Shown here in pieces: positions 15,200 to 59,185 of a stretch of 64,000 nucleotides of DNA (positions are counted from its first letter, which is position 1; each line of letters begins with the position of its first letter). The stretch is from contig NW_004457737.1 of NCBI RefSeq assembly GCF_000203815.1, positions 1,798,001 to 1,862,000 of the forward strand, given 5' to 3'. Below the pieces are notes generated by a model. That model searched no databases and was not told the origin of the DNA. It was given only the letters and a program-made list of their open reading frames with translations. Source of the stretch: Cavenderia fasciculata (taxonomy: Eukaryota > Evosea > Eumycetozoa > Acytosteliales > Cavenderiaceae). The translations under genes and the position numbers were made by a program.

Positions 15200-16563
15200 T
15201 TATAAAATTTTACAACATTTATAACATGTTGGTTTTTTAACAATCTTCTTCTTCTTCATATTTAACTTCTTTGTCATCTTCTTTTGTTTCTTCTCTTCAT
15301 TTTTTTCCTCATCTAAAGAAAATTCTAGTCTAAGAGATTTAATGTCTGTTCTAGAATATTTTATGAGGTCTCTAAAGAATTGAGGCAATTCTATTTCCCT
15401 CCAAGATTTTAAAACAAGGTCTGGTCGATCAGACTCGATTGAAAGTATAGTTGATCGGATTGCTGGACAAGACATTAAGATGAAGGTCTTTACAAATGAC
15501 TCATTGTCATCAAATTTGGTGGCAAATATTAATTTCCCGTGATCCATTAGATCTAGAATCCTGTCTGAAGCAGTATAGTATGTTCCAGTGTAAACCTCCT
15601 GATCCTGTTTATCCTCAAAAACAGCTGAACCCCAATCAATGAGAATTGGCATTCCAAAAGGATCAATGATAATGTTTGATGCTCTGACATCTCGATGAAT
15701 GATACCTTTTTTATGAATTCTTCCTAGAGTGTCTAAAATCTAAGTTGAAGTTGGATATTGCAACCATGGGATTATTGGTTAGTACCTAAAGATATGCTCA
15801 AACCTTTTTAAAATCTTACAGTTGAGAAATGAAAAAAGGAATAGTTTTCAATAGTGAAAGGTTCTCCAACAGGTTGAGTAGCTATCCAATTGTAACCATG
15901 ATCAATGAGTTTTGGAACATATATAATATTATTATTGTCAATAATCGCCTCCATTATTGAAAGTTCATGATCTTTGGCCGTAGTGGTCTGGAAAATTTTG
16001 AGTATATACTTCTTTGTCTTTTTTGTTGGTGATTGACAAGACCAGACCTGAAATGCCAGATCCAAGGAGATGGATGTTTTCATGCATCAATGGCCCTGGA
16101 TATTCTTTTTTAAGACTCTTTTTCAATCTTCTGGACTTTTGGGTTGTTGGTGTTGTAGATTCTAGATCTATTAAAATAGAAATAGAAATAACATAATTTA
16201 GTTTAAATTATAATTAAATCTGTTTAAATAAGATGATAATTTTAATTTCTACATACAATGTATTATTGCCAACATGGGGTAATCAATTCTTTGACGTTGA
16301 TTGGTTTCTTTTTCATTTAAAACTTTAACTTCAATTTCTTTTAAACTCTTGTCTATTTTACTTTCCAGTTCTAACAAGACCATGTCTTCACCTTGTTTTA
16401 AACGATTGTATAAAAGAATACGATTGTTGGCAGGGACTTGTAGTAGAATGCTTTTTCTAATTGGTCTGATTAGGTCATAGTTGTGTTTAACATCAACAAA
16501 TTCTATTTTGGCGAAATGATTTCTACAATACACATAACCTATGAATGTTATTGGTTCATCCAT
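15200..16563 (-). CDS. header-domain / protein-kinase-like protein (one frame break)
   Basis: Exons in transcript order: 16563-16257, 16167-15820, 15739-15200; about 397 residues if one base is removed at a T6 run (16019-16024). Exon 1 encodes an N-terminal module with VYCRNHFAKIEFVDV at residues 11-25. The same module begins the genes at 34065 and 58359, and in all three it ends at a phase-1 intron. Exons 2-3 encode a kinase fold: glycine loop LLGSGISGLV, probable beta-3 lysine in YILKIF, catalytic loop HRDVRASN, DWG in place of DFG (LIDWGSA), then GTYYTASDRIL. The key Lys, Asp and Asn are present, so activity is possible despite divergence. The C-terminus is Lys-rich (KKMTKKLNMKKKK). A ubiquitin-like header joined to a kinase recalls Crinkler-type proteins; that link is inference. 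Confidence 0.7.
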
Positions 16564-16916
16564 GACAATAGTAATATATAATAACTACAATTACTATATG
16601 TAGCATTTTGAGTGTTTCTCTTTTGTTCAAAAATGTATTAATTATTATTGTATACCTCCTCCTTTTTTTTTTTGATTACAATAATAAATCGTCAGTCCCT
16701 TTTTTTAAAAAAAAATCAAGACCAAAAGATTAGATTCCACAAATCAACATGATACTAAATATTTTTTAATTTTTTTCTATTTTTTTTATTTTTAAATAAT
16801 TATTATTAAAATACCTTTTTTAATTTACCAATATATATGTTCAAAATATTTGTGTTTTGTTCTTTACTATTATTATTATTTCTATTCTTATTATTATTAA
16901 TATTTTTTTTTTAAAA
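16564..16916. other. gene-free interval, 353 bp
   Basis: Very AT-rich with long T and A runs. It serves as promoter of the header-kinase gene and 3' region of eIF3c. No coding exon is seen. Confidence 0.7.
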
Positions 16917-19668
16917 TTATTTCTTTCTATTTTGTTGTTTACGTTGGTGATGATTGTTATTGTGGTGGTGATTGTTATTGTGGTGGTGTGAAGTAGCGCC
17001 AGATGGACCAGAAGAGGTTTGGGCAGCACCGGCATTTGTATTGATTTCATCAAACTTTTTGTTACGGAAACTGCCAAACTTGATATCGTAGATTCTTTCG
17101 TTTTGTTCGACAAAGTTGATGAGCGACTCTGAGTAGTTGAGGGCGAGGTGTTGTAACTTGGTTTGTTCGGAACGATGGAAGGTGATGGTTTCGGTCGAGT
17201 GTTCCCAAGAGGCAGAGATGTCGTGGTTGGCCATCATCTTGGAGACGACAGAGTGGACATGGTTCTTTGGTAGACTGAAACGCTCGGCCAATTCGTCGAG
17301 ACGCATAGTGTCATAGTAGACCGAGTAGGTGTAGAGGAAAGTCTTGAGACTGACTTCTTGAACGATACGCTTGAGACGCTCGAGTACCTTTTCTCCGTCT
17401 TGGATGACGGTCCACAACTTGAGGGTCGAGAGCAACTTGATGGTGGTTTGGTAGTCGCCAGTGGCGAGGGCCTTGGACGAGGCATAGATGATGTCCTTGA
17501 AGGTGTCGGGTGGTGGGATAAAGACTTGCTTGTCGAGGTGATCCATGTGACGTTGGTAGAATTTACAGATCTTGAGCTTCGAGTCAAATGGACGCGAGGC
17601 ACTTTGTGGCACGGCAATCAACATACCAGAGATGAGGTTGACAGTCTCGATAACGTCGAATGGGATGTGCATGTGTCCTGGCAACACTCTTTGCTTCTCT
17701 TCAATCTCACGGAGTGGCTCCTTTTCGTGGAACTTGGTGTAGGCAGAGAGACCTTGAGCGAGCAACTCCTTACGCAAACCGGAAAACTCGGCCAAACAGT
17801 TTTGAGCTTCGGCAATGTAGCCGTTTCTAAAGGCACAGAGACCGACTTGGACCATAGCACGATTGAAGAGGATTTGGGCTTGGATGTCCATCAAGGTGGG
17901 GTTGTCTTGGAGATGGGACATGAGCATCATATCACGGGCTTCATGGAAACGGTTGTGGATGGCGTTAAAGTAGATGTTGAGCAAGATGGTACGGGCGTTG
18001 AGACGCATGTCACCATGTTGGTAGATAAAGGCACTCAACTTTTTGATGGTCGATTCTTGGTCGATACCGAGATGGTAGATGTGTTCGAGACGACGGATGG
18101 CAGCACGTGCAGCCTTGTCGTTTTGGTTACCTTGTTCGAGGTAGGTTTGAACGGCGGCACCAATCTCGAGGAGGATTGACTCGTCGGCAAGACGCTCAGT
18201 GTACTCGGCCGATGGGAAGGTCAAGTGTTGGAGCGACTTGTTGAGCTCTTCATCGAGACGCTCAAAGAGCGAGAGAAGGTTGCCACGGATGTAGACGTTG
18301 CCTGGGACACGGTTTGGCTCGTCTTGTTCGCTGATGAGTACAAATTGTTTGTTCTTTTCCAACAAGCTGATGATGAGTTTGATGTTGGAGGCGGCACGCT
18401 TCCAGGCTGGACTGGCCATCGACACTTGGATGGTTGGGGCAAGATCAAACAAGGCGTTGACGACGTTGTACAAGATGCTAAAGGTGTCTTCGTCTTCCTT
18501 GACGTGCACCAAGAGACCCTCCAAAAGGTCGATTTGGATGTTGGCATTGGTACCCTTCTTACCACGTTGGTTGAGGATGTCCTTGAGCTTTTGGTGGACT
18601 TCAGCACGTGACAATTGCTTTTGACCGGCGGTTTCGGCTGGGGCGGCGGCGGCGGGCGACGAGGCAGCCTTTTCTTGCTTGAGCTTGGCCTTTTGGTCAT
18701 CATTCTTACGTTTGGTGGTGGTGGCGACCTTCTTGTCGGTCTTGGTGTCGGTCTTTTTCATCCAACGCTTAGACTTGTCAACCTCTTCGCCAACGTCAGA
18801 GTCGTCGCTCGAATCACTGTCGTCACTGTCGTCGCTGTAGTCGTCAGAGTCGTCTTCAGAGTCGTCTTCAGAAGAAGAGTCTGATGCGGCGGCACCACCC
18901 GACTTGAACCAGCCATTCTTGGCAGCGGCCTTTTTGGCGGCGCCAGCAGCTGGCTTCTTTGGAGCAGCCTTCTTTGGGCCGTCGCTGTCGTCGTCAGACT
19001 CACTCTCGCTCAAGTCAGAGTCGTCGCTCAAATCACTCTCTGAGTCGTCGCTGTCCTTGTTGGCACTCTTTAACAAGTCGGGGTTGTCTCTGTAGACCTT
19101 GACTTGAGCCTCGTAGGCTGGTAATGTCTTTTTCAACTTTTGCTTCAAGGTTTGATGTGCCTTGACGTTCTTGCTGTTCATCTTCTTCTTGCTCGATTCA
19201 TCCAAATTCAAAGATGTTTCAATTAAATATAATGCCTTGACTAATCCTGGTGGTACACCTTCCTTTTTGATAACATTGGTTGATTTTTCAATAAACTTGA
19301 TCATATTTTCAAAATCTACAAAATAATAATAAAAAGAAGATGGTTAATCATCATTAGCGTCCTAAAGATCCCGAATCTGTGTACACAGTCCCAATTTGTT
19401 CTGTATAGAGGTATATTTTACCATTCAAGATTGCGCTCCAATCGTTCATGTTGATATGATTCTTAATGTCGTTGAAACTCTTGTCTAATTGTTCCCATGT
19501 CTTGTCCTTGGCAGACTTTACAACTCTCTTGACTTCAACCTCATCTTCAGAAGAAGAGGCAGCGAAACGATTTACTCTCTTTTGTTGTTGGGCTGCGCCT
19601 GAATCTGATGATGATGACTCTGAATCACTATCTGATTCTGAATCTGATCTTTGAAAGAAACGTGACAT
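16917..19668 (-). CDS. eif3C: eukaryotic translation initiation factor 3 subunit C
   Basis: Two exons, 19668-19422 and 19315-16917 (phase 1 junction), give 881 residues, close to the usual eIF3c length. The protein is a core subunit of eIF3, which bridges the 40S subunit, eIF1 and eIF5 during start-site selection. The start MSRFFQRSDSESDSDSESSS is the conserved eIF3c opening. A low-complexity acidic Ser/Asp region follows (about residues 180-280), then the conserved helical body. The C-terminal PCI/winged-helix domain includes LDELAERFSLPKNHVHSVVS. The tail is Asn/His-rich. Codon use is GC-rich, as expected of a highly expressed gene, and this creates long antisense open frames that are not genes. 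Confidence 0.96.
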
Positions 19669-20438
19669 CTTTTCTAGAAAGTAAATTTATCTATATAAAT
19701 AAAAATAACAATAGTATAAGAATAGAATAGAATTGGAGTTAATAACAATTGGATAGATCTAAACAATCCATCAATCCATCCATCCATCAATCCATCAACC
19801 AAATCACCATATTATTGCTACTACCACACAATAAAAGACGACACTGACGACAACCTGTTTATGAAAAGTTTGTTCACAAGTAGTCGTGTACAAATAGTAT
19901 AATGTTATCTTGTTTGTCATCTGCTATACTATCTGTCCTGTTGTCTGTCTATCTGTTGTTTGTGTTTGAATATATGTCTTTGGAATGGTTGATGGAAGGA
20001 GGTGCACAATTGATTGTGTGATTGATTCTTTCTTCCTATAGTCAACGATTTGTATGACATACATAATAATATTAATCGGATCGGGTATACTGATTAAAAC
20101 TAAACTTGAATTGATTGGATAAGAGAGATATATAGAGGATGACTGTCTTCTTTTCTCTTTCTTTAATACTTCTCAACAACTACAAGCCTGTTATTATTAC
20201 TACTATATAAAATTACCTGTCTTCATGATCGTTTTTGATGCTCACTACAAAAAAAAAAAAAAAAAAAACAATTTTTTTCAATTTTCTTCTGAAGGGCGAA
20301 CAAGACGACACAGAGAGGATCCACACAAAATGACAGACGATCGGAGTAAGATTGAGAAAACGATAGGATCTATTGGTTGTATTTGTTTGTTTCTATTTAT
20401 AATATTATTATTATTTATTTTGTTCCATTTCTATTTAT
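19669..20438. other. gene-free interval, 770 bp
   Basis: Promoter of eIF3c followed by the 3' region of nup205. Contains CCAT/ATCC microsatellite-like DNA near 19767-19800 and an A19 run near 20250. No coding exon is supported. Confidence 0.65.
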
Positions 20439-23400
20439 TTATTTATTAAAAATATCTTGTAATTTTTTAATTAATAATTCAATCATTAGAGTTTTGTTTG
20501 GCATATTGTGAAGACAGTCGAAAAGTCTCTTGTGGAAAGCTGGAACCTCAGTGTCAAAACTAGTCCAGAGTTTGGTTAAAAAGTCTTTGGCTTCAACTGG
20601 TGATAACTCTCCTTCTTGTTGTTGTTGAATCATTGATTTGATAAAACTGGAATTATTAAATGATGATTGATTAAGTGCGGCCGCATTATTATATGGAACT
20701 ACTTGAGAGTTATTATTATTATTATTATTAGTATTGTTGTTGTTGTTATTATTGTTATTTGTAACTCCCTTTAAATATGAAAATACTGATGACATGAATT
20801 TACCAGTTGATGATTGTTGTTGATCATTATTATTATTTAAAAATATATCTTGTTGTTTTTTGTTGTTGTTGTTGTTGTTGTTTGATAATTCATTTAAGTT
20901 GAGGATTGGTTGTTGTTGGCTTACAAAAGATGATGAGAATGTAGATGATGATAATAATGGTGAAGTAGTATTATTATTATTATTGGACAATGATGATGCA
21001 TTAGTCATTAGACCATGAATAAATAGACCTTGTACCGAGACTGTAAAGTGGTAGGCATGGGTAACAATGACTAATAACAAAGTCTCAATAACCTCTTTTA
21101 ACAAATCACTATTGTGGTGTCTAAATGCCAAACGTTCTGTGAGCTTCTTGATGACCATTTGGTTGCGCTGCGACACTTCAAGGTCTTGGTAGGACTGGTC
21201 GTCATGCAAGATTTGCTTTAATTGGTAGTTGGACAGATTGTCTACATTTTCAATCGAGTGTTTCAAAAACTCTACAATTTCCAATGACTTGGAATACGAC
21301 ACCAAACACTCCTTCATATATTTGATTGGTACATCTAAACTTGGTAAAACAGAGTTTTGTAATGTTCCATTTCCTGATAATAATGTAGATTTAATAGTTG
21401 AACCAAAACATGCTGATCCGAATTTTGAGTCTAGACAAATAATAAATTAATTAATTAATAAATAAATATTTTCATTTTTTGATTTGTTTTCTTTTCTTTT
21501 CTTTTCTTACTTTGAATAATTGAAACTCTTCTACAATATAAAATAATGTCACGACAGATAAGAGTAATGAGATGGTTCATTTCAACGTCAAAGATGGTTG
21601 GTTGTTCCTTTTGGTTTGTGAAATCGACACTTTGGTAAGAGGCTATTTCATCTTCGTCGAGGTTACTATCGTCTCTGTCCTCTTTGATCTTTGATTTCAA
21701 ATGTCTGCTGTACTTGCCAAAGAGAGAGAGGATGGCTGAGTGGAAACGGGTAAAGTGGGCCTGTGTCTTTTCAGACTGGTAGTTTTGGGCAATCAACTTG
21801 CTGTTTTGTGACAAGAGGTGGACAGAGAGCTGGAGGATGGTCAACGAGGTGTTGGATGGAGGATGGGCATCTTGGAGAATAAACTTAAAGAGGTCGGAAT
21901 GCTCGGCCATGAGTGATTGGACTTGTGCATAGATATCGACACGTTCATGTGGGAAGTTGAACAGAGAGACGAGTAGACGGAACAAAGGGATGATGAGTGA
22001 GGCGTATGGCGACATGGAAAGATCCGATGGGACGTGTGACAGGAATGAACAGGCTGAAAACGAGGCAACAATGTTGGAAGCCATCAATAATCGGATACCG
22101 TCAATGTTTTGGGCCACTCGGATCAATAGAGACATTTGACTGTCATAGACACGAAGGTCGCGGGCATCCAATTGCTCCCATCTCTGAAGGGTGTTTGTGC
22201 ATTGACCAATAATCGAAACAATGGCATTGCGATCATCCAATGCTCTGAGTGTCTTGTTTGATCTAATACCATCCAAAGCTACCAAAAGCTCCATACAACT
22301 GGTAGCAGCAATCTTCCAACCACCAGAGAATGAACTGCAATCAGAGATTAACAATCTAACAAATCTATCATCAACCTTGTTCAACAATAATATATTATGT
22401 TTTTCAATTGATTTTATATTATGAATGGTTGTATTATTACCATTTAAATCATTTGTTTTGTTTTGATCAAATGAATGAGTTAAACTAGAAAAAAAAAATT
22501 AAATTAATTAATTATATTATTAATAATTTTCTTTTTGTTTACTTACGTCAAATATTTAATGATACAAGTATAAGCAATACCTCTAATTGGTTGATAAGAA
22601 GATCTAAGGATAGTTTGAATTAAACCTTCGAAAATTCCTTTAACCTTTGATTCCAAGATATCATTGAAATTGTTTGATAGTTGGAAAGTATCCTTTTTCA
22701 TCTTGAGAACATAAAACAATGTCAAAATGGTATAACCCAAAGAGATTCCACATGTAATTGGATATTTTTCATTTGAAAATTCCATTACCAATCTTTGTAA
22801 TAATGTTAATGGTATCATTTCATTCATTGATCTAAAAATAAATAGGATAGAATATTAATATTTTAACAATCATTAATCATTTTTCTTTTTTTCTTTTTTT
22901 CTTTTTCTTCTTTTTCTTCTTTTTTTTTAACATACATTAAAGTATCAACTTGTAATAAAGCTTCATTTACAAATAATTTCCAACCTTCGAGAGCACGAGT
23001 TTTAGAATCTACCAAAGTGATGGTTGCATTGAGACGAGCACAAATTTCCAATTCTCTGTCAATGTCTTGAACGTTGGTGAAACGTGGATCAGACTCTAGA
23101 TGCTTGCGGACGAGTGGAAGATTGACGATTTGACAATCACGGTAATTGACCAAGCAAGAGGCTTCGAGGACAGGGATGAGTTCGAAAATACGTGGTTTCT
23201 GGAGCTCGGCAAACTCAAACTCAATGGCATTGAATACTTGGAGAATCTCGAGTGCGTTGCTGTTGTAGGTGTTGCCGTTGCCACCACGACCGTCTCCGCC
23301 GACCAACAAACTCATAAAGTAGTTTTTGATAAGTGGGTCGGATCCGCAGTGCATGGTGGTGGCCATGGTCTTGAGCAACCACGACAACGCCGAGATGTGT

Positions 23401-26400
23401 GCGTCCTTTAGCTTCTCATTGCGACATTGTTGCAAGCATGATTTGAGTAGGGCAATGTTTTCCTTAAAATAAGAGACTGGCAAAAAGTTTATAATGGGTT
23501 TGGTGGTGGCCGGAGTCGACACCATGCAGTTGATGATTTGGTGGTAGCAGTCGTTGAGGTGAGGGAAACGTGTGACAAAGTCGACGTCAGATACCTTGCG
23601 CAGCAGAACGGTTAGGCAAGTACGCGAGTGCTTTTCAAAGTCGATCGACAGGTCATAGACGGAGGGACACCCGAGCAAAAAGTGTCCGAGTGTGTAGCGG
23701 TTGGCGTTGCCCGAGCCGACGACACCGCCAAAGCTCGTCTTGGATGCTGCGGCACCGCTGCTCGCGCTGCGGTCGATACAGTAGAGGATGAGCTGTGCGA
23801 TGGTCCATTGAATCGATCCCTTGGCGTAGCGAGAGAACTGCTCCTCTTGATCGAGGTACAGTGTGGCGGCATGCATGCGGTGGGCGCCGCTTGAGGTCAT
23901 CTCGCTCTCTTGCTCGACACATTCCATGACACGCACAAATCGCTCGAGCAGTGCGTCGGGTGCAGCGGACGCCAAAAACAGCGAGCTAATGCGTTGTGTG
24001 TACACTTCGAAAGAGTAGATTAGACGCAGCGCCTTGAGACCAATATCGCGGTTCTCATGGTCGACGAGCTTGGCAATCGCGATGATGGGTGACGATGTGG
24101 CGGGTGCAGCCGACAACTGAGTGACGATCGACTTGGCATCGTCGACCCCAAACACGTTGCTGTCCGACACGAGCAGAACAATCTCGAGACATCTCTCCAA
24201 AGTATTTTGAAAGAGGTCGTTTTGGACGCCGAGCAACTCCTGGTCGTCGGCGCTGTCTGATGCAGCGGCGGCGGTCACGATAATGCCAACGATGGTCTGG
24301 AGTGTGTGGTGGTGTGCCATCTTGGTGACTTCAGCATACAATGGATACACTGGATGACGACGGTCAATCACGCGGTTCGACACACCGCCCGTCTTGAACT
24401 GGTTGAGACAGTACATAAAGATATTGAGGATAGTTAGCGTGAAACGCCACTTGTCGAGGATATGGTTGAATGCCTTGTTGTTGAACGACTGGAACAACTC
24501 CATGATATGGTCCAAGTACTGACGCAACGTGTTGTCGTTGCTGCGGTCAAACAAGAACGGCGACACTTGTAACAACTGGTAAAACAACTCCAAAAATTGT
24601 TGTGTGAATGGGAACTCTCCGTGCTCTGAGCTCTGTGACTCCATTCTCAAACCAGCCGGGAAGATCTTGGAATCAATCAACAACTTCCAGATATCTGGTA
24701 CATAGATGGGGTAACGGGCACAGGCAGCGATCGCACGCAGTGTAGTTGACTTTAGCGACACGGATACTGGCGACGTGATGAATCTAAAGAATAAAAAGAC
24801 GAGCTGCACATTTCGGGCTAGCATCTGAGCCAACTGTGGTGCATAGCTGATCGTCTCTGTGATGAGACATAGGATGGCGTTGAGTGCCTCTGTGTCGGCC
24901 GGACTAATCTCACTATTTGGTTGGTTGAGTGCGTCGACATAGATTTGCAAGTGTTGAATAATCTTGTTCCATGTAAAGTGACTACTGTCCTTTGTAAAGA
25001 AATTGTACACCTCTATACCATTGCTAATCGACAATGATGCCATCATGTGGAACGAACTAACAATCAATCCATTGGGAATTTGCATCCACAATGATTTCAA
25101 GAATCCACTCGTTTCACAACACTCCCAAAATCTCTTTGAACTTGTACTACCATCTTTATAAATTGATACCAAAAAATTATTAAAATTATTTAAAAATGAT
25201 ATTTCTAAACAAATAAAAATAGAAAGGAAAGGTAAGTAAAATAATCAAATTATACTTATTTGTTATATTGTTGTTTCTTACGATTATTTTTTTCAGTTGA
25301 AATTGGAAATAATTCAACAATTGAACAAGCATAATCATCAAGAATGAATTGATATAGATTCTTTAAAGATGAATTTTTAAATTCCTTGGATTCAACAATC
25401 TTTACCAAAAATTCCATTCCATTTCTATCCTTTGGGAATGCTTTACTCTTGTAATTATTCTCAACTCCACTACCACCTTCAACTTTTAATTTAAATATAT
25501 AAAATAATGTTAACAAACTTGATTGAATTGATATATCTAGAAATTAAAATAGAAAAGATTAATTAATTTGTCTGTCTACTACTACTTATTATTATTTATG
25601 TGCACATACTATGTTCCCATTCATTTTCGATATCAGACAATACTGATGATAAAAAGGTTTGATTTGATAGACAATTGTTGGTGGTTGGTTTCTTTTCGGT
25701 TGGGTTCATTAATACCACCTTTGGTTCTTCAAACAATACAAAGATTGTCAATAAAAGAGTATAGGTGATTTGGAATAATTGATGATAGAGCGTAGTATCG
25801 ATTTGTTGATTTGAGAATAATTTTGAACATTCTTTTAATTTTAATAATATAGCTTTAATTGATTCCTCTTTAACTATAAACTAAAAGAAAATAAAAGTAA
25901 AAGTAAGTACTTGGTGGAAATTGATTGATCGATCAATAAGATATTCAATTTTCCCAATTTAACAACATACTTGGAAACAAATTAAATATAAACATTCAAC
26001 TATTCTTTGACACTCTATAATTCTATATTTGAATTCTTTTTGGTTGGTTGGAACGGTAATGTTTTGAATCTTTTCTTCAAACAACTTTAATAGAATGGAT
26101 ACTAAATTGTTGGTGCCTCCAGACAACAATTCACATATAAACATTTGAAGTACATCTCTTTTACTTTTATCAATCTCTGAATTTAAATACTATCAAAAAT
26201 GAACACATTAATATTTATATCCAATATTAATATAATAATATCAATTTGAGAAGACTTACACTTAGGATTTCCTTTAAAGTATTAAGATAACATGATCTAG
26301 TTTGATAAACAAAATCTTCACATAATATTAATAATTGTGAATTATCTCTTATTGATGTCTATATATAAATAATAATAAATGAAATGTGGATGTAAGTAAA

Positions 26401-26844
26401 AGACTAATTAATATATCTATCTCGATTGATATATACCAAATTTAATACATGAGCCAATACTTGACATGCAAGGTATTCATCAATATTTAACTTGTCTGAT
26501 AGTTGAAAGGCTATTTGAATAAAGTCGTCGACGACTTCGATAATATCACCTTTCATGATGAACTGCTTTCTCGCTTTGATCTCGTTTCTTCGTGTCTCTG
26601 ATTCAGTAGCAGACTTTGGTCTGAGACGACAAAGACGTTCGGAGAAGTTGTGTTTCTGTGACCACAAGAATTGTGCCAAGTCTTGAGTCACTGCTGGTAA
26701 TGATAATGCATACTTGTTGCCATTGCTACCTCCTCTATCGGCTGCACCACCACCAGCACCACCACTCGAAGCCAACGAATCATCAAATGATCGAACATGT
26801 GATACCAACTTATTGTATGGATCACTAAATAAGTCTTCCTCCAT
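20439..26844 (-). CDS. nup205: nuclear pore scaffold protein Nup205
   Basis: Nine exons in transcript order: 26844-26437, 26358-26260, 26189-25971, 25880-25610, 25536-25282, 25204-22936, 22831-22547, 22484-21511, 21430-20439. All phases agree, giving 1923 residues, near the about 2000 of the Nup205/Nup192 family. This inner-ring subunit is an alpha-helical solenoid linking pore scaffold parts. The N-terminus (DLAQFLWSQKHNFSERLCRL, then LSDKLNIDEYLACQVLAHVL) and the C-terminal part (YDSQMSLLIRVAQNIDGIRL) match family signatures as I remember them. The whole protein is helical with no membrane segment. The C-terminal region has Asn/Gln-rich insertions, typical of the lineage. Introns cluster in the first quarter of the gene. 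Confidence 0.85.
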
Positions 26845-27490: not shown

Positions 27491-27522
27491 TTATGGCTTT
27501 TCATACAAGTTTGATGAACGGA
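27463..27522. repeat. parent copy of the ndk 3'-end repeat
   Basis: Overlaps the ndk stop codon and last codons. It includes AAACTATAGTTT, itself a 12-bp palindrome, just past the stop codon. Confidence 0.7.
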
Positions 27523-31917: not shown

Positions 31918-31950
<33 letters not shown>

Positions 31951-32712: not shown

Positions 32713-34065
32713 TTATTTATCGTTTTTGCTTACATAATAAGGATATTGTGTAGTTGAATTGGATGTGGTGGTGGATGGTGTAAATGGAACCGACGACGCA
32801 GACAATTGTTTTGTTGGGATATATTTGAAAATGGCTGGTGACTGTGGAGGTGGAGGTGGTGGAGATGAGGTAAAGTGCGGAAAATGATGTTCCTTGGAAT
32901 GACTACAATACCTAACACCACATGCTTTTCTATAAGTTACTCTATGAAAATCTGGGCATGTACATCCTTTAAAATGACACGGTGATATTAATGGTGATTC
33001 ATGAATTTGATTTTGGTTATTATTATTTTGATTATTAAATTCCCATTTAGTACCACTACTACTACTACTTCCAATATTTGATGTTGAAGTAGTAGTAGTT
33101 GTACTAGTCGTCGTTGTACTGGTCGGATTATTTTTAATGATCGGATTATTATTATTATTATTATTTTTAGTATTATTTCTACTACTAGATCTATAATAAT
33201 AAAATTTAATTGAAATTTAATTAATTAATAAATAGGTTTCCAGAATTCATAATTTCTTTGTTATTACCAAAATAAATTCATTCAACTTACTTTGCCAACA
33301 AAGTATTATTATTTTGTTGTTGTTGTATTTGAGGTGGCGGTGGATGTAATTGTAATGGTTCATTATTAATATTATGATTATTTTGATTATTTTGATTATT
33401 TTGATTATTTTGATTATTTTGATTATTATTAAAATTAATATTATTAATTGTTAATTTTAAATGTGCATTTTCATCTTCAAGTCGTTTTAATTTCTTAAAT
33501 ACATCTACTTCATCCAATGATGAATGATCATTTAGTCCAACATCTCCATGTTCCAATTCTCTTTTAATTACTAAAACAATCAATCAATCAATCAATTATT
33601 TTTGGTTAGTTAGTTATTATTATCCATATTATTGATTATCCATTTTTACCTACATAAAGAATCATGGTATTGAGATGATAATTCAACATAAATATTATCA
33701 CCATTATTTAGTGTGATGGCAGACAATGGGTCCAAGGGGACACGATGGACATTGTTATTGTCAGAGGGTGGATCGACATAGAGTCGCAGTGCAAATGGAG
33801 GTACGCGAAGAAAAAAGTCGTCCCTGATGTGTCGTAACAGGTCATCGCAATCGTGCACATTGCCAAAGGTGATTTTGGTCAAGTCATCTTGGTAGTGCAC
33901 AACCAATACTATCGTTCTACCATGGTCGTGTTCAGGTGCCACTGTTTCAGTGTTGCTCGTCGTCGTCGTTGTTTGTACATTGAGTGACAATGATGATGAT
34001 GTCGATGTCGATGTAGATGTCGATGTTGATGTTGATGGCGTTGTATCGGTGAATGATGAAGACAT
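32713..34065 (-). CDS. header-domain / coiled-coil / Cys-His-rich protein
   Basis: Exons in transcript order: 34065-33654, 33570-33291, 33190-32713; 389 residues. After a Ser/Thr-rich start, residues about 51-135 form the module shared with the genes at 16563 and 58359 (VHYQDDLTKITFGNV at 56-70). It again ends at a phase-1 intron (donor GTAGGT). Exon 2 encodes a short coiled coil (VDVFKKLKRLEDENAHLKL) and an Asn/Gln-rich linker. Exon 3 encodes a cluster CHFKGCTCPDFHRVTY then CGVRYCSHSKEHH that could bind zinc, and a Pro-rich tail. I do not recognise the Cys-His motif. A GTAAGC near the stop (32725-32731) could be another donor, so a further exon is possible. Confidence 0.7.
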
Positions 34066-34586: not shown

Positions 34587-34621
<35 letters not shown>

Positions 34622-42358: not shown

Positions 42359-42409
<51 letters not shown>

Positions 42410-46749: not shown

Positions 46750-46932
46750 ATATAATATAATATCAAAAAAAAGAAATGAGTATACACATCAATTTGGATT
46801 GAATCTTTAATTGGGATTTCTTTCTTTTTGTTTGTTTGGTTATTATTAATGTACATCATTGAAATACATAAATTATTAATTTGAATTTATTTGGGGGATA
46901 CATAGTTTTTTTTAAAGATACTATTTCTTTTG

Positions 46933-46974
<42 letters not shown>

Positions 46975-47086
46975 GTTGGCAATTGATTGATTCGATTGAA
47001 TGGGGATGGTTGAAATAAATAAATGGTGATATTGATATTATTATTATTTAATATTAAATATTATTAATTTGTTAATATATTATGAT
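46750..47086. other. convergent 3' interval, 337 bp
   Basis: AT-rich 3' flanks of two convergent genes with an (ATT)n run at 46933-46974. Nothing else is seen. Confidence 0.7.
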
Positions 47087-50000: not shown

Positions 50001-50110
50001 ATAATCAAATGGGAAATCTGTCATTTTTAATGATTGTTTTACTAAAAGTAAAACAAAATAAAATATAAAATAAAAGAAAATGAATTAATTAATATTAATC
50101 AAATATTAAA

Positions 50111-50145
<35 letters not shown>

Positions 50146-50333
50146 TTTCTTTACATACCTCCACCTTCAAAAAAGAATAAACCAAATTGTTCCATATCAC
50201 CTTCCTTCATGAAATACTTTTTACCAAGTTTCTCACATACCTCTCCGGCAGGTGTACGTGATTCAACTGCCATGGATTTATACAATCCATCCTTATCATA
50301 TACTTTTAATACTTTTTTAATGATTGGTTCCAT
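47087..50333 (-). CDS. RA-PH-CH-CH-coiled-coil-RA protein (one frame break)
   Basis: Exons in transcript order: 50333-50159, 50041-49064, 48961-47087; about 1008 residues after removing one base at a GGG run (48019-48021, CCC on the coding strand). Residues 1-100 look like a Ras-association domain. About 140-240 is a PH domain (GFLLRKKANKFDKVWAIS to DLQAWATELQ). Two calponin-homology domains follow, with signatures YVAWTDYLVSGRGLSS then SDGLVLINLIEELFG, and DKLIGWCNARVG then SYMIYLSCFYYLLSG; tandem CH domains bind F-actin. A long, highly charged coiled coil comes next, and the C-terminus has a second RA-like fold (VVVRICLEGFGDVLFCSFAI). The layout predicts a Ras/Rap-regulated, phosphoinositide-sensing actin linker. 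I do not know a characterised protein with this exact order. Confidence 0.8.
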
Positions 50334-51493
50334 TCTTTCTTTTTTTTTGTTAAATATCTATAGAACTATCTTTGTGTCTAAATAGATCAAAGATATATGA
50401 TTGATATATAATATATGTGTGGGTTGTGTATAGGTGTGTAACAATGATTCACAGCACAAAGTGTGTGTGCTTATTCTAAATATACAACTGTCTCTATCTA
50501 TATTATTATTGTCTATCAATTCTATTATTATTATTGTTATTGTATAAAGGTGCAATTGTTATCTATATATCTATCTATCTATCTATCTGTATCTATTAGC
50601 TCTACTATCTATCTATTATCTGTTTAGAGAGAGAAACGAAATTGAACCGAAAAGAAAAGTCGTAATTAGTAAACAGGAAGCAATGGTTGGATGTGTTGTG
50701 TTTGGTGAATTCCCTTCTTTTCGGAGGGTGTGATCGCACAATCGTCGTCGGATGTTGGGGGTGGTTGATTGATGGTTTTCGCCCCTCCTCTCCTAATCGA
50801 CGATTCCATTCCCACGCACACCTCCCCAATACATTGATGATCTTTTTCAAACTTTAAAACCTACGTGTTATGTGTGTATCTGTCTCTCTCCCTCTTGTCT
50901 GTTGCTCTTTCTATCTATCTCTTTTTTTTTAATCCTAATTTCTGTTTACTGGTAGTAGTTAGTATCTTGATTGTTTGTGTTATTAATGATGAATCTAAAC
51001 AAGAGCCTAGATTTGCTGGCAAAAAAACCCAAATTAACAACAATAAAAATCTTTCCCCAACTGCTGCAAAAGGTGTTTCTTTTTCTCTTTATGCTACATA
51101 CTGCTACACTTTATTCTGAGCTCGAAATTGTTTTCACGTCGTTCAATGTCGTAAGCAAAGGTCGTACGTGCGCGATCTTATCGATAAGATAGTTGATACA
51201 AAATTAAGGTGCAAAGTTATATACTTTAGTTCTTTTTGCAAATATATTGACTGTTGATATAAATAAATAAAAAGACAAATGACAAAGAAATCAGAGGGGG
51301 GCTAAACGGCTTATCACTTCTATTATTGTTATTCAACTCCAAAGGCGATTGTTGTAAAAACCTCCCCACAAAATTGCCATCGGAGAAAAAGGTTAAAATA
51401 TCTATTTTTTTTTTTGTCATTCAATTAATTGTTTTATTTACAAGCGGGATGGTTTAGGGTGATCCTTTATTACCCTTACTACTACTATTGCTA
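50334..51493. other. gene-free interval, 1.16 kb
   Basis: Promoter of the RA-PH-CH gene, ATCT microsatellites (50562-50588), and an AT-rich 3' flank for Cap-G. A plus-strand stretch around 50980-51085 looks weakly coding but lacks a start, splice partners or similarity. Confidence 0.55.
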
Positions 51494-54400
51494 CTAATAG
51501 AAATGAACTGGAGGTGGAGTGTAACCCGAGGAATGGAATCTGACTCTCTTTGTTGGTTGTTTAATTGCCGTTGTGGCGTTGGTAGTGGCAGTTTCCAACA
51601 TGTCATGTTGATCACGTTTCTTGAGGATGGATCTAACAGTCTTTTTTGATGGTTTGTCAATAGATTGTTGGAATTCGGATGCTCCTCTAAATTTAAATGG
51701 TCCCCAATTTTTGAATTCTTCATCGTCCGATTCTTGTGAACTCACGGTCTTTTGTTGTTGTTGTTGTTGTTGTGATGGTATATTATTGAGGCGTTGGTGT
51801 TTGGGACTATTATTATTATTATTATTTACATTTAATTTTGAAGATAGTATTTGACGAACACTTATTTGTTCATCATCACCACCAAATCCACCATTATTAT
51901 GGTCATTGATAGATTGACTAATACCATTACCATTTTTGTTGTTGTTGTTGTTTGATTGTTGTGATTTAATTGGAGTAAATGTTGTTTCAACAATTGGTTT
52001 TTCATTTTGTTGATGTTCATAGGTCTTGTTGATGGTTTCTACAGTATCAAATAACTTCTTTTGATTTTGAAAGAATGCTTTCAAACTACTTGGATCGTAC
52101 TTTGCCTTTTTGTTAATGTCATAATTGACACGACCCTTTTTATCAACTACCACATCTCCATCGCCTTGACTACCGCAAGTGTCGGTCGAACCACCAAACA
52201 TATCCTTTTTAGGTTTCTTTGCAGAGGAGGATGGAGTTGAGGGAGACTTTGTTGTCTTGGTTGGTGTTTTCAATCCCCCCTTGACTGGAGTTTTCTTTGT
52301 TGGAGTTGTTGTTGTTGTTGATTTGTTATTTTGAGGAAACCCAACAATATTCTCATACTGTGTGCCATATTCTTCCTTTACATGTACGTGTTTCGAAGTG
52401 TTTGTAGCACTTGTTGGTTCTGAATCATTGATTCCACTGAAATCGAGTGTGTCTGGGTCTCTGTTGGTACCACTCTTGATCAATGCACGCACCGACTCTT
52501 GGAACTGGGTGATGTGGGGGTCGACAAAGAGGACGGTCAGCTTGTCGAGCATTTGGTAGATCTTGGCCAAATGGGTTTGATGTTGGAACTTGTCAAAACG
52601 GAGAAGGGGGAGTACCTTGGTGAGCTCTTTGGTCTCACCTCTAAAACATGATATCAGTTCCTGACAGATTTGGATGGCTATCTGTGGATGGATGTCCTCC
52701 ACCTTGAATGTTTCGACTTGCGACACTGTCATTTGTGACGATTGCACAATGAGATCAGAGGTACGTCGCGACAAGCTGCTGATGGTGGTCTTGACCTGAG
52801 CGGCGTTTTTGCATGGCTTGTCAAACAAGTACAAAAGGAATTTGGTGAGGTCAATCAAATTGATCAGCGCATAATTCGATCCCTTGACCGACTGTACGAC
52901 CGATTTTAAAATAGGCAACGTACTATTAAACAATAGAATCTTGTTTTCCAATGAATCGGCAACATATGCTTGGAAAAATAAATATAAACATTTTCTCAAC
53001 TCTAATAAATCTTTTGTTGCTGGTGACATTAATTCTAAAAATAAAAATATTAATATCTAAAATAAATAGAAATAGAGTTAATAAATAGTTTGATTTAGTT
53101 TTTCTTATTATTATTATTTTTTTTTTTTACCTTTTGATCTTGAACAATACCAGAATATAATAATTTAACAAAACCTTCAATACAAATAATTTTTGTTTCA
53201 TCATTGGTTGAAACTTGTGAATATTTTCGAATCATTTTGTAAAGTGGTACAGTTTCTTTTGGAATGGTTTTGGGTGATCCAAATACCAATATAATATCAA
53301 ATACAACCCTTAAACAAGCTAGTTGAATTTCAGGTGTATCAGTTTCTAAAATCTTTTCAAATAAATTTAAATAATTTAATGCTGCATTCTATAAAAATAA
53401 ATAATTAATTGTTAATATATGATTTCTAGTTTCTTTTTGTTTCTTTTTACTTACACGTCTATGTAAACAAAAAATACCAAGATTTTGAACACCTAATTTA
53501 CGTAGATTTGGTAGTGGATGTTGAATACTTGGTAGAATGACCAATTGCAAGAGACCATCGATTTCTGGTGAATTTGAGAATTTCTTTGCATTGAGCAATA
53601 GGTAATGAGTAATGATGGAGCATTTTAAAATGGCTTGTGTTTTACTACTTTGAATGATTTGTTTGAGTTGATTGATTTGAGTTTGAATGGTTTGCCATTC
53701 CTTTTTGTTTTTGATACTTTTCTTGTCAATCGCTTCCAACTCTTCCAATTTGGTAATGTTTGGATCGACTTCTAATGGGTCAAGTAGATCAGATAGCAAC
53801 TCTACCATTTGCAATATAAAAGTTCTTTCTATTCCAATAACCAATGAAAGACAAGATAGAGTTTGTTTGATGAGTTGAAATTCTTTTTCAGCCGATGATT
53901 CGTCCACACCTTGGCATTTAACAACTCGTAATATTTGTAGTAGAAATACTTCCATATTTGTACGACCGACTTCGTCACCAAAGTCCAAGCTTTGCAAAGC
54001 TTCTAGTAGTTGTCCAAGCACATAAAACTCTCCTAAATGTGCAAGCAATATATCACGATATTCGGTGAGTGTTGGTAGTAGCTCGTCCAATCGCTCCATC
54101 AATAAGTATTTTGAGGCATTTGGTACGGACACCGAGGTCAAATGGTGTACTGTCAACTTGTGGTGGAATGCCTGTTCGTTGGTAATGTCTTTTCGGCAGA
54201 GTCGTAGGGCGAAATCATCCAAACCAGCCTTTTCATAGACTGCCAATAACGATCGTTCGAGGAATGGCCCATTCTCGACGACATCGATCTTTTCGAGATA
54301 GATGTATAGGTAGTGATTGGGATTCTCTGATTTGAGTTTGTTGAGCCAACTAGTGAGAAGATCGAGTGAAGCTTCTTTGACCTTTGGTTCAGGGTCGTTT

Positions 54401-55441
54401 AATCCTTGACTGATCACTTCAATAATTTGTTCGCTTGTAAAGTCATCCATCTTGTACCATTTGCTTAGGATGTTGTAGGCTGTCGATCTGACCTCTAGTT
54501 TAATGTCTTTGGTACGACGAATAACATGTTGAATCAAATCCAATGTATCAAATTTAACAGCCACTGCAAAGGGAACAATCTGCTTGAGCAACGTGTTTCT
54601 AATATTCCAAACTGAATCACTGTCCATCATTTCGAGCACTTCTTCAAAGTAGGACTGATCCTTTTTGTTCATATAGTATTTAACCGTTACATTGACTGCA
54701 GACAACCGAATATTCACATTTTTATCTATACATCTTGTATCCAATATTGATTTTATATCCATATAATTTGATTTTTTATCAATATCAAATAATCTAAAAA
54801 AGAAAAACAAAAGTAAACAAGTTAGAGAGAGTGAGGGAGAAGGAGAGAGATAGAGATTATATAATCTTTACATACTCTGTTTTAGTATCAGGATCTGATA
54901 ATATATTATTTAATAATTGAAGTGATCTATGTCTAACTACAGTTTCTTTGGAATCCAATACAGTATATAGAAATGATAAAACTGCATCCTTAGATTGTCT
55001 CTTTTTTTGTTTAATCAATTCAATGTTTTTGTTATTATTATTATTATTATTATTAGCAGTATTATTATTTGTTGTTGTTGATTGTGAAGATGTTGATATA
55101 GAAGAAGATGATGAATTATAAAGATAAACTAAATATTTTGATATAAATCTGCAAGTTGCAGTTGTTTTTGAATCTTTTGAACTTGGACAACAGAGATATA
55201 GTTTGATTGGATAGATAAATGATTCTGCAAATTCATTTGCATCTCTTGATCGCATCAAAGCTTTATCCAATTGAATAAACGATGATGTAAACGTTGATTT
55301 CAATCCCAGTTCTGATGCTTCTCCAACTGTCTCTTTGAATATTTCACATATCGTTTTTAATGTTTGATTCTGATTATTACTATTACTATTGTTATTGTTA
55401 TTACTTGTTGTTTGTTGTGATGTTAGTGATTTTCTTGCCAT
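51494..55441 (-). CDS. ncapg: condensin complex subunit Cap-G
   Basis: Exons in transcript order: 55441-54876, 54793-53455, 53388-53131, 53056-51494; phases agree, 1241 residues. It is the HEAT-repeat subunit of condensin I that, with Cap-H and Cap-D2, binds DNA and regulates the SMC2/SMC4 motor. Signatures as I remember them in the family: RHRSLQLLNNILSDPDT, NVNIRLSAVNVTVKYY, WNIRNTLLKQIVPFA, RRTKDIKLEVRSTAYNILSK, and LLYSGIVQDQ followed by the LELRKCLYLFFQAY block that reads across the last splice. That continuity chose the acceptor at 53057. The C-terminal about 350 residues are Ser/Thr/Gln-rich with possible phosphorylation sites. MARKSLT was chosen as start; an upstream Met at 55459 is possible. 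Confidence 0.88.
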
Positions 55442-55661
55442 TTCTTTATGTATGTACAAAGCAAGAGAGATAGATATCTATATATTTCGATAATATTAAA
55501 ATGTTCATAATGAACACCCCTCCTCAATGAGCAATACCAAAACCTTCGAAGTTCTTAGAATTCACACTTTTTTCAAATTTTTGAACTCCGAGTTTGGAGT
55601 TTATTTTTTTTATATTCGACTCGAAAAAATCTAACTTGATGAACATGTTGATGGTCTTTGA

Positions 55662-55678
55662 AATCGGTCAGTCACCCT
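55662..55678 (+). repeat. 17-bp direct repeat, copy 1
   Basis: AATCGGTCAGTCACCCT, repeated identically 64 bp downstream. It lies about 200 bp before the F-box-like start codon, so it is a candidate regulator-binding site. Confidence 0.7.
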
Positions 55679-55725
55679 TAGATACGAGTTAGGTTGAGTG
55701 AGAGATAGTAAAGAGAGGGATGTAG

Positions 55726-55742
55726 AATCGGTCAGTCACCCT
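55726..55742 (+). repeat. 17-bp direct repeat, copy 2
   Basis: Second identical copy. Its end also forms an inverted repeat GTCACC-CTA-GGTGAC (55735-55749). Confidence 0.7.
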
Positions 55743-55864
55743 AGGTGACACAAGCTATATAACAGAGCTGCTCTCACCATGTGAATTCATTCAACCAAGC
55801 ACACCTCCTCTACCTCTACCTACCTCCTACCTATCTTCACAACAAAGTTATTATTATCTCTTTC

Positions 55865-57436
55865 ATGTCAACTACTACTACTTCAATTGCACTACCACCT
55901 TCATGCTTACTACCACTGGTCTTTAGTACTACTGACTCATTATTTGGCTATTTGTCTGTTGCTGTCTCTGCTGCCTCTGCCTCTGCCTCTGCCTCCCAGT
56001 CTCTGTCTGTCTGTTTTGATCCGTCTTCGTTGAGTTATTATCCTTATAGCTATCCCGACTGTGCTGGCCGCCAAGACCTACTCGTCTCTCCTACTACTGT
56101 TACTAGAGTAGTGGAAGAAGAGGAAGAGTATGATCACGAAGTAATGGGTGCTGATAATGATAATGACGGTTCCATCGGCATGGCTATCGACACCAATATC
56201 TATTTAGTGCCTAGTATCTATGAATCTGAATCAGGAGCAGGGCCATCGTCACCATTGTCACCAATGTCCCCAGGCTTGGTTAGATGTAGTTCCTTTTGTA
56301 ATGGAAATCGTCGGTTGGAGTGTGTCCACTGTGCCCATTTAGAGTTGGGTTGTTCTCTGCTGACTCCTTGTGTCTCTCTGTCCAAGCAAGAGTCATTACC
56401 ATTGCCATTCTCTGATCTAGATGATGTGTTGGATAATGATATTGTTGTAGTCGTCAAACAACCAAACAACCCGGCCAAGTCAGGGTTCGAGTCAGAGTCA
56501 GAGTCAAAGGTGACACTACCAAAGTTTTGTTTGAGTATTATTCTCAAACATCTCTGGGATTCAATGTCTGACGAACCTCTCTACACCAAGTTATCAGTGC
56601 TGCCATACGTGAGCCATTACTTTTTCGCATGTGTCAAGTCTCTTAACTGTAACCTCAAGCTGACACTGACCAACCAATGTTGCCAAAGATTGATGCGTTG
56701 TTTCACTGGCCGTCCACAATACACCCGTTCTCAACTCACTATTCTAAAGGACAGAGTAATGACCAACAACAATAATAATAGTAGTACCGAGCAAGACAAC
56801 AGTAACAACTCAACAACGGTTGGAAGATGGAATTTAATCAATTCTATTTCATCAATTACATTGGTACAAGATGGTAGTACTAGTTGTATTGGTAGTGTTG
56901 AAAGTTTGTTTGTGTGTCCACCGTTCCGTAGGATGATTGATATGTCGCTCGAGGATATCAATACCACCGATCAGAGTGTCCACAATCTGGTTAGTGCCAT
57001 TCCCACCATCAAGTCATGCACAGTTACCTGTTATCTCGACCAGATCCCACGATTCTCTACACATTTTGATCGAGTATCTGCACACCTGGTAGTACAAGTC
57101 GCCCAAAAGAGAAGGAGAGTGTCATCGGTCGTACCACAATCGTTGATTGACAGTTTCAATCATGTTGCTCGTATTCATATACGATTCTCTTATTCACCCG
57201 ACCACTCGAGCAACCATTCACACGAAGCAGCCTATGAGTTTGTATTGCAACTCATCAAAGCCAATCATGCCTCCACCGAAATTCACCTGGAATTGGATAT
57301 CGTCCAAGGAAACACCGACGATGAACAATCATCATCATTGTACAACGATAAAAAAGATAAAAAGATACAAACATTACGTAGAACATTATCTAATCGTAAA
57401 CATCTTTTAAATCATACCATTTCAATAAATAATTAA
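55865..57436 (+). CDS. F-box-like orphan protein
   Basis: Single exon, 523 residues from the ATG at 55865; the open frame extends upstream but without an ATG. Residues 1-190 are low-complexity (Ser/Ala/Glu). A helical segment VTLPKFCLSIILKHLWDSMS (about 215-240) then LSVLPYVSHYFFACVKSLNC resembles the F-box region of dictyostelid orphans such as the gene at 13313. The remainder is leucine-rich with weak repeats. A role as SCF adaptor is inference only. The stop is 154 bp before the kish start, leaving little room for a promoter between them. Confidence 0.7.
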   Translation: MSTTTTSIALPPSCLLPLVFSTTDSLFGYLSVAVSAASASASASQSLSVCFDPSSLSYYPYSYPDCAGRQDLLVSPTTVTRVVEEEEEYDHEVMGADNDNDGSIGMAIDTNIYLVPSIYESESGAGPSSPLSPMSPGLVRCSSFCNGNRRLECVHCAHLELGCSLLTPCVSLSKQESLPLPFSDLDDVLDNDIVVVVKQPNNPAKSGFESESESKVTLPKFCLSIILKHLWDSMSDEPLYTKLSVLPYVSHYFFACVKSLNCNLKLTLTNQCCQRLMRCFTGRPQYTRSQLTILKDRVMTNNNNNSSTEQDNSNNSTTVGRWNLINSISSITLVQDGSTSCIGSVESLFVCPPFRRMIDMSLEDINTTDQSVHNLVSAIPTIKSCTVTCYLDQIPRFSTHFDRVSAHLVVQVAQKRRRVSSVVPQSLIDSFNHVARIHIRFSYSPDHSSNHSHEAAYEFVLQLIKANHASTEIHLELDIVQGNTDDEQSSSLYNDKKDKKIQTLRRTLSNRKHLLNHTISINN

Positions 57437-57590
57437 AATTAAATAATTAAATAAATAAAATGTATTAATAAAATCGGATGAATCATCAAAAAATCAATAT
57501 TATTAATATTACTTTTGAACTCATAATTTTAGAGTACTTACTATTTTTGTATATATATATATATATTTATTTTGATTATCATGGTAAGTT

Positions 57591-57968
57591 ATATATATAT
57601 AAGAAGAGAAGAGAAGAAAAGATAGATGAGTTTGAATCTAACAATCAATCATGTTGTTCATCTATTTATTTATAGTCAGCAATCTTTAATTTTCAAAGTT
57701 TACTAGTGGTAATATTACTCTTTATCTGTACATGTACTTATATTAGAGCTTCATATCCAAAGCTATTAGAAGTTAGAAATAAACATAGGTATGTTGATTG
57801 ATTGATTGTTTGTTTGTTACCAATAACACAATACAATACTAATCAATGAATGATTTCATATATAGTATATCAGGGTTACCTTGGAAAGCAGCAAGAATAG
57901 GTGAAAGATTAAGTCCTTGGGTTTCAGCATCATGTATAATAATGGGAGCAGTTCTTTTATTTTGGTAG
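57591..57968 (+). CDS. tmem167: Kish protein (TMEM167 family)
   Basis: Three exons, 57591-57593, 57676-57788, 57866-57968, give 72 residues, the family's usual length. Exon 1 is only the ATG, followed at once by GTAAGT. The protein starts [20 protein letters not shown], continues [20 protein letters not shown], then [20 protein letters not shown] and a final hydrophobic helix ending in LLFW. This matches Kish, a small Golgi membrane protein of the secretory pathway with an N-terminal membrane helix, a conserved RIGER loop and a second helix. Each exon is too short to appear as an obvious open frame, so the gene is easily missed. Confidence 0.95.
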
Positions 57969-58358
57969 ATTTCTTTGTACTTTGAATAGAAAGAAATATT
58001 GGTATCAATCGATCTATAGATCACTAGTGTAGTGATACAAAAAGAAAGTTTAATAAAAAAAATTTAATAATATATCAAAGGGAAGAGTTCGAAGACACAT
58101 TATAATTCTAATATATTAATACATCAACATTTCTCTCATCACAAATTTTAGTAAACGTAAAGTGATTAACATCTATCAGTGATTCATTTCAAGACATCAC
58201 CTCCATCAAGAACCTCGCTTTAATTTATTATAATATTTGTTGTATACATTTTAATTATAAATCACACTCATTCTATAGTCTTTAATCCCATCTAGTCTAT
58301 TTTCATTGTCATTTATACATTCATTCATTTATTCATTAATTACTATCAATTTTTTGGA
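57969..58358. other. gene-free interval, 390 bp
   Basis: AT-rich 3' flank of kish and promoter of the header-domain gene. No exon is seen. Confidence 0.7.
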
Positions 58359-59185
58359 ATGGCTGATCATGTTGCAGCTGTTCGTCGAAATATGACTCTT
58401 TTAGTTCACTATGGTTCTGATGTCACCGAGATTGAATTTATAAATGTTGGTACATATGACCACCTCCGTCAGGTCATTGCAAGAGATCCAGTGCTCAACA
58501 TTCCCTCTGGCAGGATACTACTCTTTTTGGCACCCCAATCCATTGACACCAGTTATGTTCGAGTCCTTCCGTTGTCTCCAATCCCTCTCCCCAACCCTAC
58601 GGACATTTATGTACAAGTTGAAGAACAAAGTATGTATTAAGTTAATGCTCCAATATAATACCAAGTATATGTGAGAAGTCAAAACAACTGCGCTGGGTTT
58701 TTCGCAAAACTCATATAAATTTGTGAGAGACTGCAAAATTCTCTCACACAGAGTGTTTTGATTTTTAACATATTAATAACTATTTTTTTCTATAGCACCT
58801 GAGATTAGAATATATTCAACAGATTTGTCTGTCCTTAATCGTGAATTTATGATAGAAATAGGAGTGAAAGAAAGACTTAAAAGCTTTGGGGAGCCCACAA
58901 ATCAAGAGAGGGTCCGGATGCGTCTGGACTCGGAAAGTGATCTTGACCATCATCCAAACACCCACTGTTCCTGGAGACTATGTCGTGGTCGTCGGACCAA
59001 AAACAAAGTTTACAGTCAATTATTCATTGACCACTTTTCCATTTAACATTTGGACAACATCTGCAGAATTTGAAATTCCAGTTTTAGGGGATGAAGCAAA
59101 TTGGAAAAAGTATATTATTATTATAATGATATCGTTATCATGTAGAGAAGGTTCTTTAGTGTGTCCAATATATCCTAGAGAATAA
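58359..59185 (+). CDS. header-domain protein with beta-rich C-terminus (one frame break)
   Basis: Two exons, 58359-58629 and 58796-59185, about 219 residues after removing one G from a G4 run at 58888-58891. Exon 1 is the module shared with the genes at 16563 and 34065 (VHYGSDVTEIEFINV at residues 16-30, then DHLRQVIARDPVLNIPSGRI). It ends at a phase-1 intron as in the other two. Exon 2 continues PEIRIYSTDLSVLNREFMIE and, past the frame break, VILTIIQTPTVPGDYVVVVG and EFEIPVLGDEANWKKY. This is a strand-rich region of unknown family. The intron contains the second TIR element. Without the repair the protein would be cut short at about residue 148. Confidence 0.6.
58670..58770. mobile_element. 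short TIR element (MITE-like), copy 2, inside an intron
   Basis: A 101-bp relative of 1683-1739 with the same ends (TGTGAGAAGTCAAAAC, GTTTTGATTTTTAACA), TA on both flanks (58668-58669, 58771-58772) and the shared core GCTGGGTTTTTCGCAA. It has about 45 extra bases forming an internal hairpin (TGTGAGAGA / TCTCTCACA). Copy 1 looks like an internally deleted form, or this copy gained the hairpin. Confidence 0.65.

Follow-up and report, generated by a model that had tools for sequence, protein, structure and literature searches.

A predicted ubiquitin-like first-exon header joined to different C-termini in Cavenderia fasciculata: a family probably of Crinkler-RHS-type design

It is chiefly as effectors of plant-pathogenic oomycetes that Crinklers are known; what they do in free-living organisms is presented as open in the parts of PMC5289972 that bear on this point. 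The same parts describe Crinkler-RHS-type (CR) proteins as a ubiquitin-like (Ubl) or other header followed by NTPase-REase, kinase-REase or further C-termini, rule out signal peptides in them, and report them from free-living eukaryotes. Oomycete and chytrid Crinkler cases appear in excerpts of two further sources (PMC11064341; PMC5364385), and conserved LKxxI and LxL positions are given for fungal CRN headers in an excerpt of PMC6131194. Among the literature matches listed, whose coverage is partial, none links Crinklers to dictyostelids. Here we analyzed a 64,000-nucleotide stretch of the Cavenderia fasciculata genome (contig NW_004457737.1, positions 1,798,001 to 1,862,000 of the forward strand; hereafter the window), in which an original prediction had proposed that three genes, here called W1, W2 and W3, share an N-terminal module encoded by the first exon and carry different C-termini. 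All three first exons were found where it had placed them, with translations as described (Table 1). They probably belong to a family of at least 16 members that has a Ubl header, exchangeable payloads and the general design of CR proteins.

The genome (31.0 Mb, 21 contigs) is dictyostelid-like in base composition, Asn/Gln runs and style of intron. It was searched with different headers and only the best candidates were scored, so the resulting 16 places with a header module are a lower bound. Three of them lie in the window and 13 elsewhere (L034/L042, L035/L043, L044, L045, L046, L047, L048, L049, L050, L051, L052, L053 and L040). L051, L052 and L053 were first picked up at E 0.016-0.055 with a consensus query; the L052 header as query gave L051 at E 4e-29, L053 at 8e-14 and the newly added L040 at 6e-10. 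A tree of the 16 headers contains clade I (W1, L042, L043; support 100/98), clade II (W2, W3, L044-L050; 92/92) and clade III (L051, L052, L053, L040; 90/84), the clade I branch being the sole one of 13 inner branches that passes both support limits. The three window modules, from two header clades, fall within about 42 kb of the window (15200-59185); an even spread would give 0.03 modules per 64 kb, a figure to be read with the window itself having been singled out for these modules. The L050 header (1103-1588 of its region, turned) has a long Thr/Ser-rich insertion between header strands; its first part gave a weak DUF7188 match (E 0.048), and one of 12 scanned members matched at E 0.0065.

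With Crinkler and CR proteins this family has in common an N-terminal Ubl header, as predicted here, diverse C-termini that include P-loop NTPases and a kinase, the organization as a multigene family, and recombination near the header end. It differs from them in that the header is a single exon mostly ending in a phase-1 intron, and in its small non-enzymatic tails and the putative nature of its nuclease part. The full LxLFLAK, LFLAK, DWL and HVLxxP motifs are absent from the modules. Moreover, PF20147, the Crinkler header profile with which a comparison had been proposed, had no match in the 14 modules scanned out of 16 (12 members at E<=10, L040 and L051 at E<=1; all but the L052 and L053 headers), a result to be read with HMMER filters dropping very weak matches. 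A PF20147 search of the genome likewise gave no match, and neither did its controls, so this result carries little weight. Because the modules scanned lack a PF20147 match, we do not class the family as CRN proper. An LxxxI helix followed by [ILM]xL[FY] is present in 16/16 modules compared with 63/16000 shuffles, the pattern having been written after the modules had been seen. The [ILM]-x-L-[FY] part lies at the third strand, where CRNs have LxLFLAK; this short form is generic for Ubl domains.

A ubiquitin-like beta-grasp had been expected as the fold of the header. The W3 model, the one on which this point depends, is Ubl-like at moderate confidence, and a structure search with it (Foldseek) returned PB1, UBX and TBCE-type ubiquitin-like folds among the matches. 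The model of the W1 header was uninformative (pLDDT 49.8, with unrelated low-scoring matches). Comparison with PB1, which had also been proposed, gave no Pfam PB1 match in the 12 members scanned, though PB1 folds appeared in the W3 structure search. The family resembles PB1, UBX and TBCE-type Ubl domains in the fold of the W3 model, its scanned members have no Pfam match to these sequence families, and a likeness of fold alone says nothing of function. A search of PDB sequences with the header profile gave chance-level ABC-transporter matches only.

In pairwise comparison, the headers of W2 (34.0 kb) and W3 (58.4 kb) are 39% identical over 83 residues, and the header of W1 (16.5 kb) is weakly similar to these two (blastp E 1e-4 and 0.008, the database holding just three sequences). 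The profile HMM test that had been suggested was carried out with a held-out HMM of the 13 non-window copies against 1063 window ORFs of at least 30 residues. The three modules took ranks 1-3 (E values in Table 1), and the fourth-ranked ORF had E 0.42. The 13 copies had themselves been found with the window headers, so profiles leaving out whole clades were added. Without clade I, the profile found W1 at E 5.6e-8; without clade II, it found W2 at E 6.7e-6 and W3 at E 7.8e-6; in both cases the three modules were ranked 1-3. Clade II copies alone found W1 at E 5.1e-7. The smallest profiles were weaker: clade III alone gave W3 at E 5.7e-5, W1 at 0.001 and W2 at 0.068, and two clade I copies alone gave W1 at E 1.1e-16, W2 at 6.2e-4 and W3 at 1.7 (rank 4). 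Since held-out and leave-clade-out profiles both recover the window modules, the shared module is real and chance likeness of the three exons is ruled out; judged by sequence, they are one homologous exon module. That independent ubiquitin-like first exons converged in sequence without a common origin might be suggested by the L-x3-I and [ILM]-x-L-[FY] motifs, which are generic for beta-grasp domains, but we consider this extremely improbable given that the profiles recover modules even with their own clade left out, that the copies have an intron phase in common, and that several copies share sequence identity at the DNA level.

All splice junctions discussed here were derived from DNA alone; automatic gene models overran genes widely and were used solely as a second opinion on first introns. 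When donors are limited to common forms, a GT donor in phase 1 follows the module in 12 of the 16 copies (W1, W2, W3, L040, L044, L046, L048, L049, L050, L051, L052 and L053), which agrees with the intron phase proposed for the three window genes. As the copies are related, this common phase is one inherited fact and not 12 independent ones. An overlapping phase-2 donor is also present in W2, L044, L049 and L053; in the last three the frame beyond the acceptor, with the DNA read by eye, favours phase 1, and in W2 both fit. L042 and L045 were left out of the count, having donors in several phases, including 1, and no intron leading to a tail, and L043 and L047 have no donor after the module. 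Regarding the proposal that the module ends at a phase-1 intron in all three window genes, W1 is clear, W3 agrees with either of its acceptors, and W2 agrees in having a fitting phase-1 donor, with the phase-2 donor as a second possibility. In L040 (1700-1800, turned), the last codons of the header recur inverted in the next intron, so that the splice donor carries a short inverted repeat.

Table 1. Features of the three header genes of the window (positions are those of the window; E values are from the held-out header profile).
Gene	Feature	Position	Strand	Phase	Details
W1	Exon 1, Ubl header, clade I	16257..16563	-	Ends in phase 1	102 aa; HMM E 6.6e-15
W1	Intron 1	16168..16256	-	1	GTATGT...TAG; 89 nt
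W1	Kinase region, N-terminal half	15808..16167	-		By eye
W1	Kinase region, C-terminal half	15200..15739	-		HRDVRASN, DWG, end CKIL; Pkinase match
W2	Exon 1, Ser/Thr-rich leader and Ubl header, clade II	33654..34065	-		HMM E 2.2e-26
W2	Donors	33653; 33649	-	1; 2	Phase-2 donor overlapping, 4 nt on
W2	Exon 2, short presumed coil and Asn/Gln-rich stretch	33291..33570	-		Coil by eye
W2	Exon 3, Cys-His cluster and Pro-rich tail	32713..33190	-		CHFKGCTCPDF ... CSHSKEHH
W3	Exon 1, Ubl header, clade II	58359..58629	+	Ends in phase 1	90 aa; HMM E 1.2e-24; modelled
W3	Intron 1	58630..58795	+	1	GTATGT...TAG; automatic model extends to 58883, also phase 1
W3	C-terminal region	58796..59185	+		Competing acceptors 58796 and 58884, both phase 1

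The kinase proposed as the partner of the W1 header was recovered, the ORF with the catalytic loop matching Pkinase (PF00069) at 33.8 bits against a cut-off of 31.7 (E 3e-8). In the upstream part of the kinase region, the ORF 15808-16086, which lies in another frame, had no kinase match in Pfam. The reading frame is broken after the glycine-rich loop, inside the kinase region, through decay, an intron there, or an assembly error, and the automatic gene model skips the N-terminal half of the region. Given this break, W1 may be decaying. W1 (15200-15260, minus strand) and the second exon of L050 have the CaaX-like ends CKIL and CTIC, each after a Cys-rich run; in these two genes of different clades, such ends are possible lipid anchors.

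The Cys-His cluster proposed for W2 is present as well, and it recurs in the paralogue L044, where its halves lie in two frames without a visible intron between them (blastp E 4e-10 and 6e-7 for W2 against the L044 halves, each compared with a single sequence). As read, W2 has an open frame in all three exons, and its second donor is also used by the automatic gene model. The second exon of W3 is short and has two alternative readings: from the acceptor at 58796 the frame stops at 59046, and from that at 58884 it is open to 59185. The beta-rich region attributed to W3 therefore stands as the frame from the 58884 acceptor only, and not as that from 58796. Neither frame gave a Pfam match of note. 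A C-terminal domain common to W3 and L049 had been suspected by eye and was rejected (best blastp E 0.70, phmmer 0.099).

Headers were assigned to partners from exon order and frame. P-loop motifs occur in the ORFs behind the header at 6 of the 16 loci (L040, L043, L048, L051, L052 and L053), and the P-loop NTPase partners are of four sequence types. L040 and L043 carry homologous NTPases (E 1.5e-38, 36% identity over 228 codons), those of L051 and L052 form one type (73% identical), and L042, which has no P-loop behind its header, weakly resembles the L053 type (E 1e-4, 17 bits, one of three short stretches fitting). Comparison of the four types by hhalign revealed no clear relation (best probability 38.7 for C-D; 16.9 for A-B). 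In L046 and L050, short tails follow the header. L051 and L052 have a conserved tail (E 9.8e-62) that lies in its own ORF and would need an intervening intron to be joined to the NTPase. Pfam recognized none of the suspected nuclease tails, and hhalign found no profile relation among them; we infer that the tails of L048, L051, L052 and L053 are putative nucleases. The divergent neighbour gene at L044 (117-715) and L045 (1-597; both turned, with the header on the plus strand) was copied along with the header, with 92% DNA identity between the two loci; it encodes a Lys-rich protein with no Pfam match over the cut-off.

Library searches placed some of these NTPases near described groups, below curated cut-offs. 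The best matches of the spliced L048 NTPase were to RHS families, TIGR01631 (E 0.0062; 14.8 bits versus a cut-off of 89.75) and the RHSP family PF07999 (E 0.024; 14.5 versus 25 bits), whose curated cut-offs were far from reached. For the first L048 ORF alone, Pfam gave KaiC ATPase only, and TIGR01631 had E 0.063; against PDB sequences the spliced NTPase gave nothing at E<=1. The L040 NTPase was most similar in Pfam to nSTAND_NTPase5 (1.2e-5), DAP3 (6e-5) and NACHT (5e-4), all under cut-off, and its best PDB sequence match was a DAP3/mS29 chain (E 0.0077). STAND-like Pfam matches, also under cut-off, were obtained for L043. Both differ from nSTAND and DAP3-type NTPases in being fused behind a predicted Ubl header. 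The L051, L052 and L053 NTPases had no informative library match. Relatives of the L048 and L040/L043 NTPases in viral contigs, and of the L051/L052 and L040/L043 NTPases in prokaryote genomes, were sought by scans that need short near-identical peptides, and none was confirmed. Of five proteins submitted to PADLOC, only L053 had a match, a weak one to Drt4 (E 4.5e-4).

The suggestion that the header was exchanged between different C-termini by exon shuffling holds up, both in NTPase types that span header clades and in breaks at the DNA level. The L040/L043 type occurs in both of the header clades split by the 100/98 branch, as does the L053/L042 type if the weak L042 match is accepted. Each of these two labels needs two changes on the header tree, and one change suffices in 0% of 200 bootstrap trees. 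The Cys-His label also needs two changes, with the supported branches still allowing one. At the DNA level, L042 and L043 share a block of 268 columns with 85% identity, which starts about 20 nt ahead of the header ORF and reaches the last strand, and beyond the header only simple repeats and one 44-column stretch elsewhere are alike. For L044 and L045, 399 aligned columns of 5' flank and header have 97% identity; the likeness stops about 17 nt short of the L044 donor, beyond which the two are unlike, and further upstream they are 92% identical over 614 columns. As read from these alignments, both pairs look like one header and its promoter side attached to two different tails. Taken together, all six tail labels need 6 changes compared with a shuffled mean of 7.8, a value as low being reached in 9/200 shuffles; this low number indicates that tails have also partly been inherited with their headers.

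Six copies look broken or rearranged, with frame breaks, stops, lost introns or truncated tails (L042, L043, L044, L045, L047 and partly W1), and L045 and L047 are degenerate; decay could thus account for some of the diversity seen. Such copies, together with the two competing frames in the W3 second exon, would be expected if this were a decaying multigene family, in which the headers are what remains of a single NTPase family and the unusual partners (coil, Cys-His cluster, short or beta-rich tails) are functionless chance fusions or pseudogene read-through. Against this stand the recurrence of the Cys-His cluster in W2 and L044, even if in two frames in the latter, the phase-1 donors retained in most copies, and Nei-Gojobori dN/dS values, which for paralogous headers, NTPases and one tail came to 0.32-0.70 in 8 of 9 comparisons (the ninth was saturated). 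These values show constraint, loosely held, and we regard general decay as an improbable account of the family.

The original prediction had likened the three genes to Crinkler-type proteins, and this likeness of design is supported because paralogues join the same header to P-loop NTPases. The repertoire of NTPase-(REase) and kinase partners fits the CR description in the available parts of PMC5289972. In the CR-type reading of the family, the header would be encoded by its own first exon, in most copies ending at a phase-1 intron, and recombination at or near the end of this exon would have attached the payloads, namely four NTPase types, a kinase, a Cys-His cluster and short tails. The Ubl header would be the constant docking or targeting part, and we infer that it serves as an address, not as a modifier or dimeriser. 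The payload would act on nucleic acid or signalling proteins; in the NTPase members, the P-loop domain may be an NTP-driven switch of a C-terminal effector domain. The proteins would presumably serve in conflict with other organisms or invading elements.

A different function would follow if this were a lineage-specific intracellular signalling family, in which a Ubl/PB1-like header provides oligomerization or docking for the organism's own kinases and STAND-like NTPases, serving innate immunity or the programmed death of the amoeba's own cells without passing to other cells. The ranking of PB1 and UBX domains by Foldseek is consistent with such a family, as are the nSTAND_NTPase5, DAP3 and NACHT matches nearest to the L040 NTPase, all under cut-off, and the lack of an obvious signal peptide in the headers as judged by eye; the CaaX-like ends of W1 and L050 would suit the inner side of a membrane. 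However, the turnover of tails, the broken copies and the RHS-type best matches of L048 suit a conflict family better, and Pfam PB1 is not matched by the members scanned. We hold the signalling family to be possible but rather doubtful. For the CR-type family, a more specific and tentative proposal is that it may be the social amoeba's own polymorphic Crinkler-like arsenal, in which a family-wide Ubl address exon would exchange its payloads (NTPase, kinase, metal cluster and short ones) across an intron, and which would serve conflicts among amoebae or with their bacteria or mobile DNA.

Dictyostelids include cultured, genetically tractable species, in which the function of the header, the activity of the payloads and any delivery from cell to cell could be tested with no pathogen involved. 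The one-exon header also makes this family a clear natural example of exon shuffling, with two neat pairs in which near-alike headers carry different tails.
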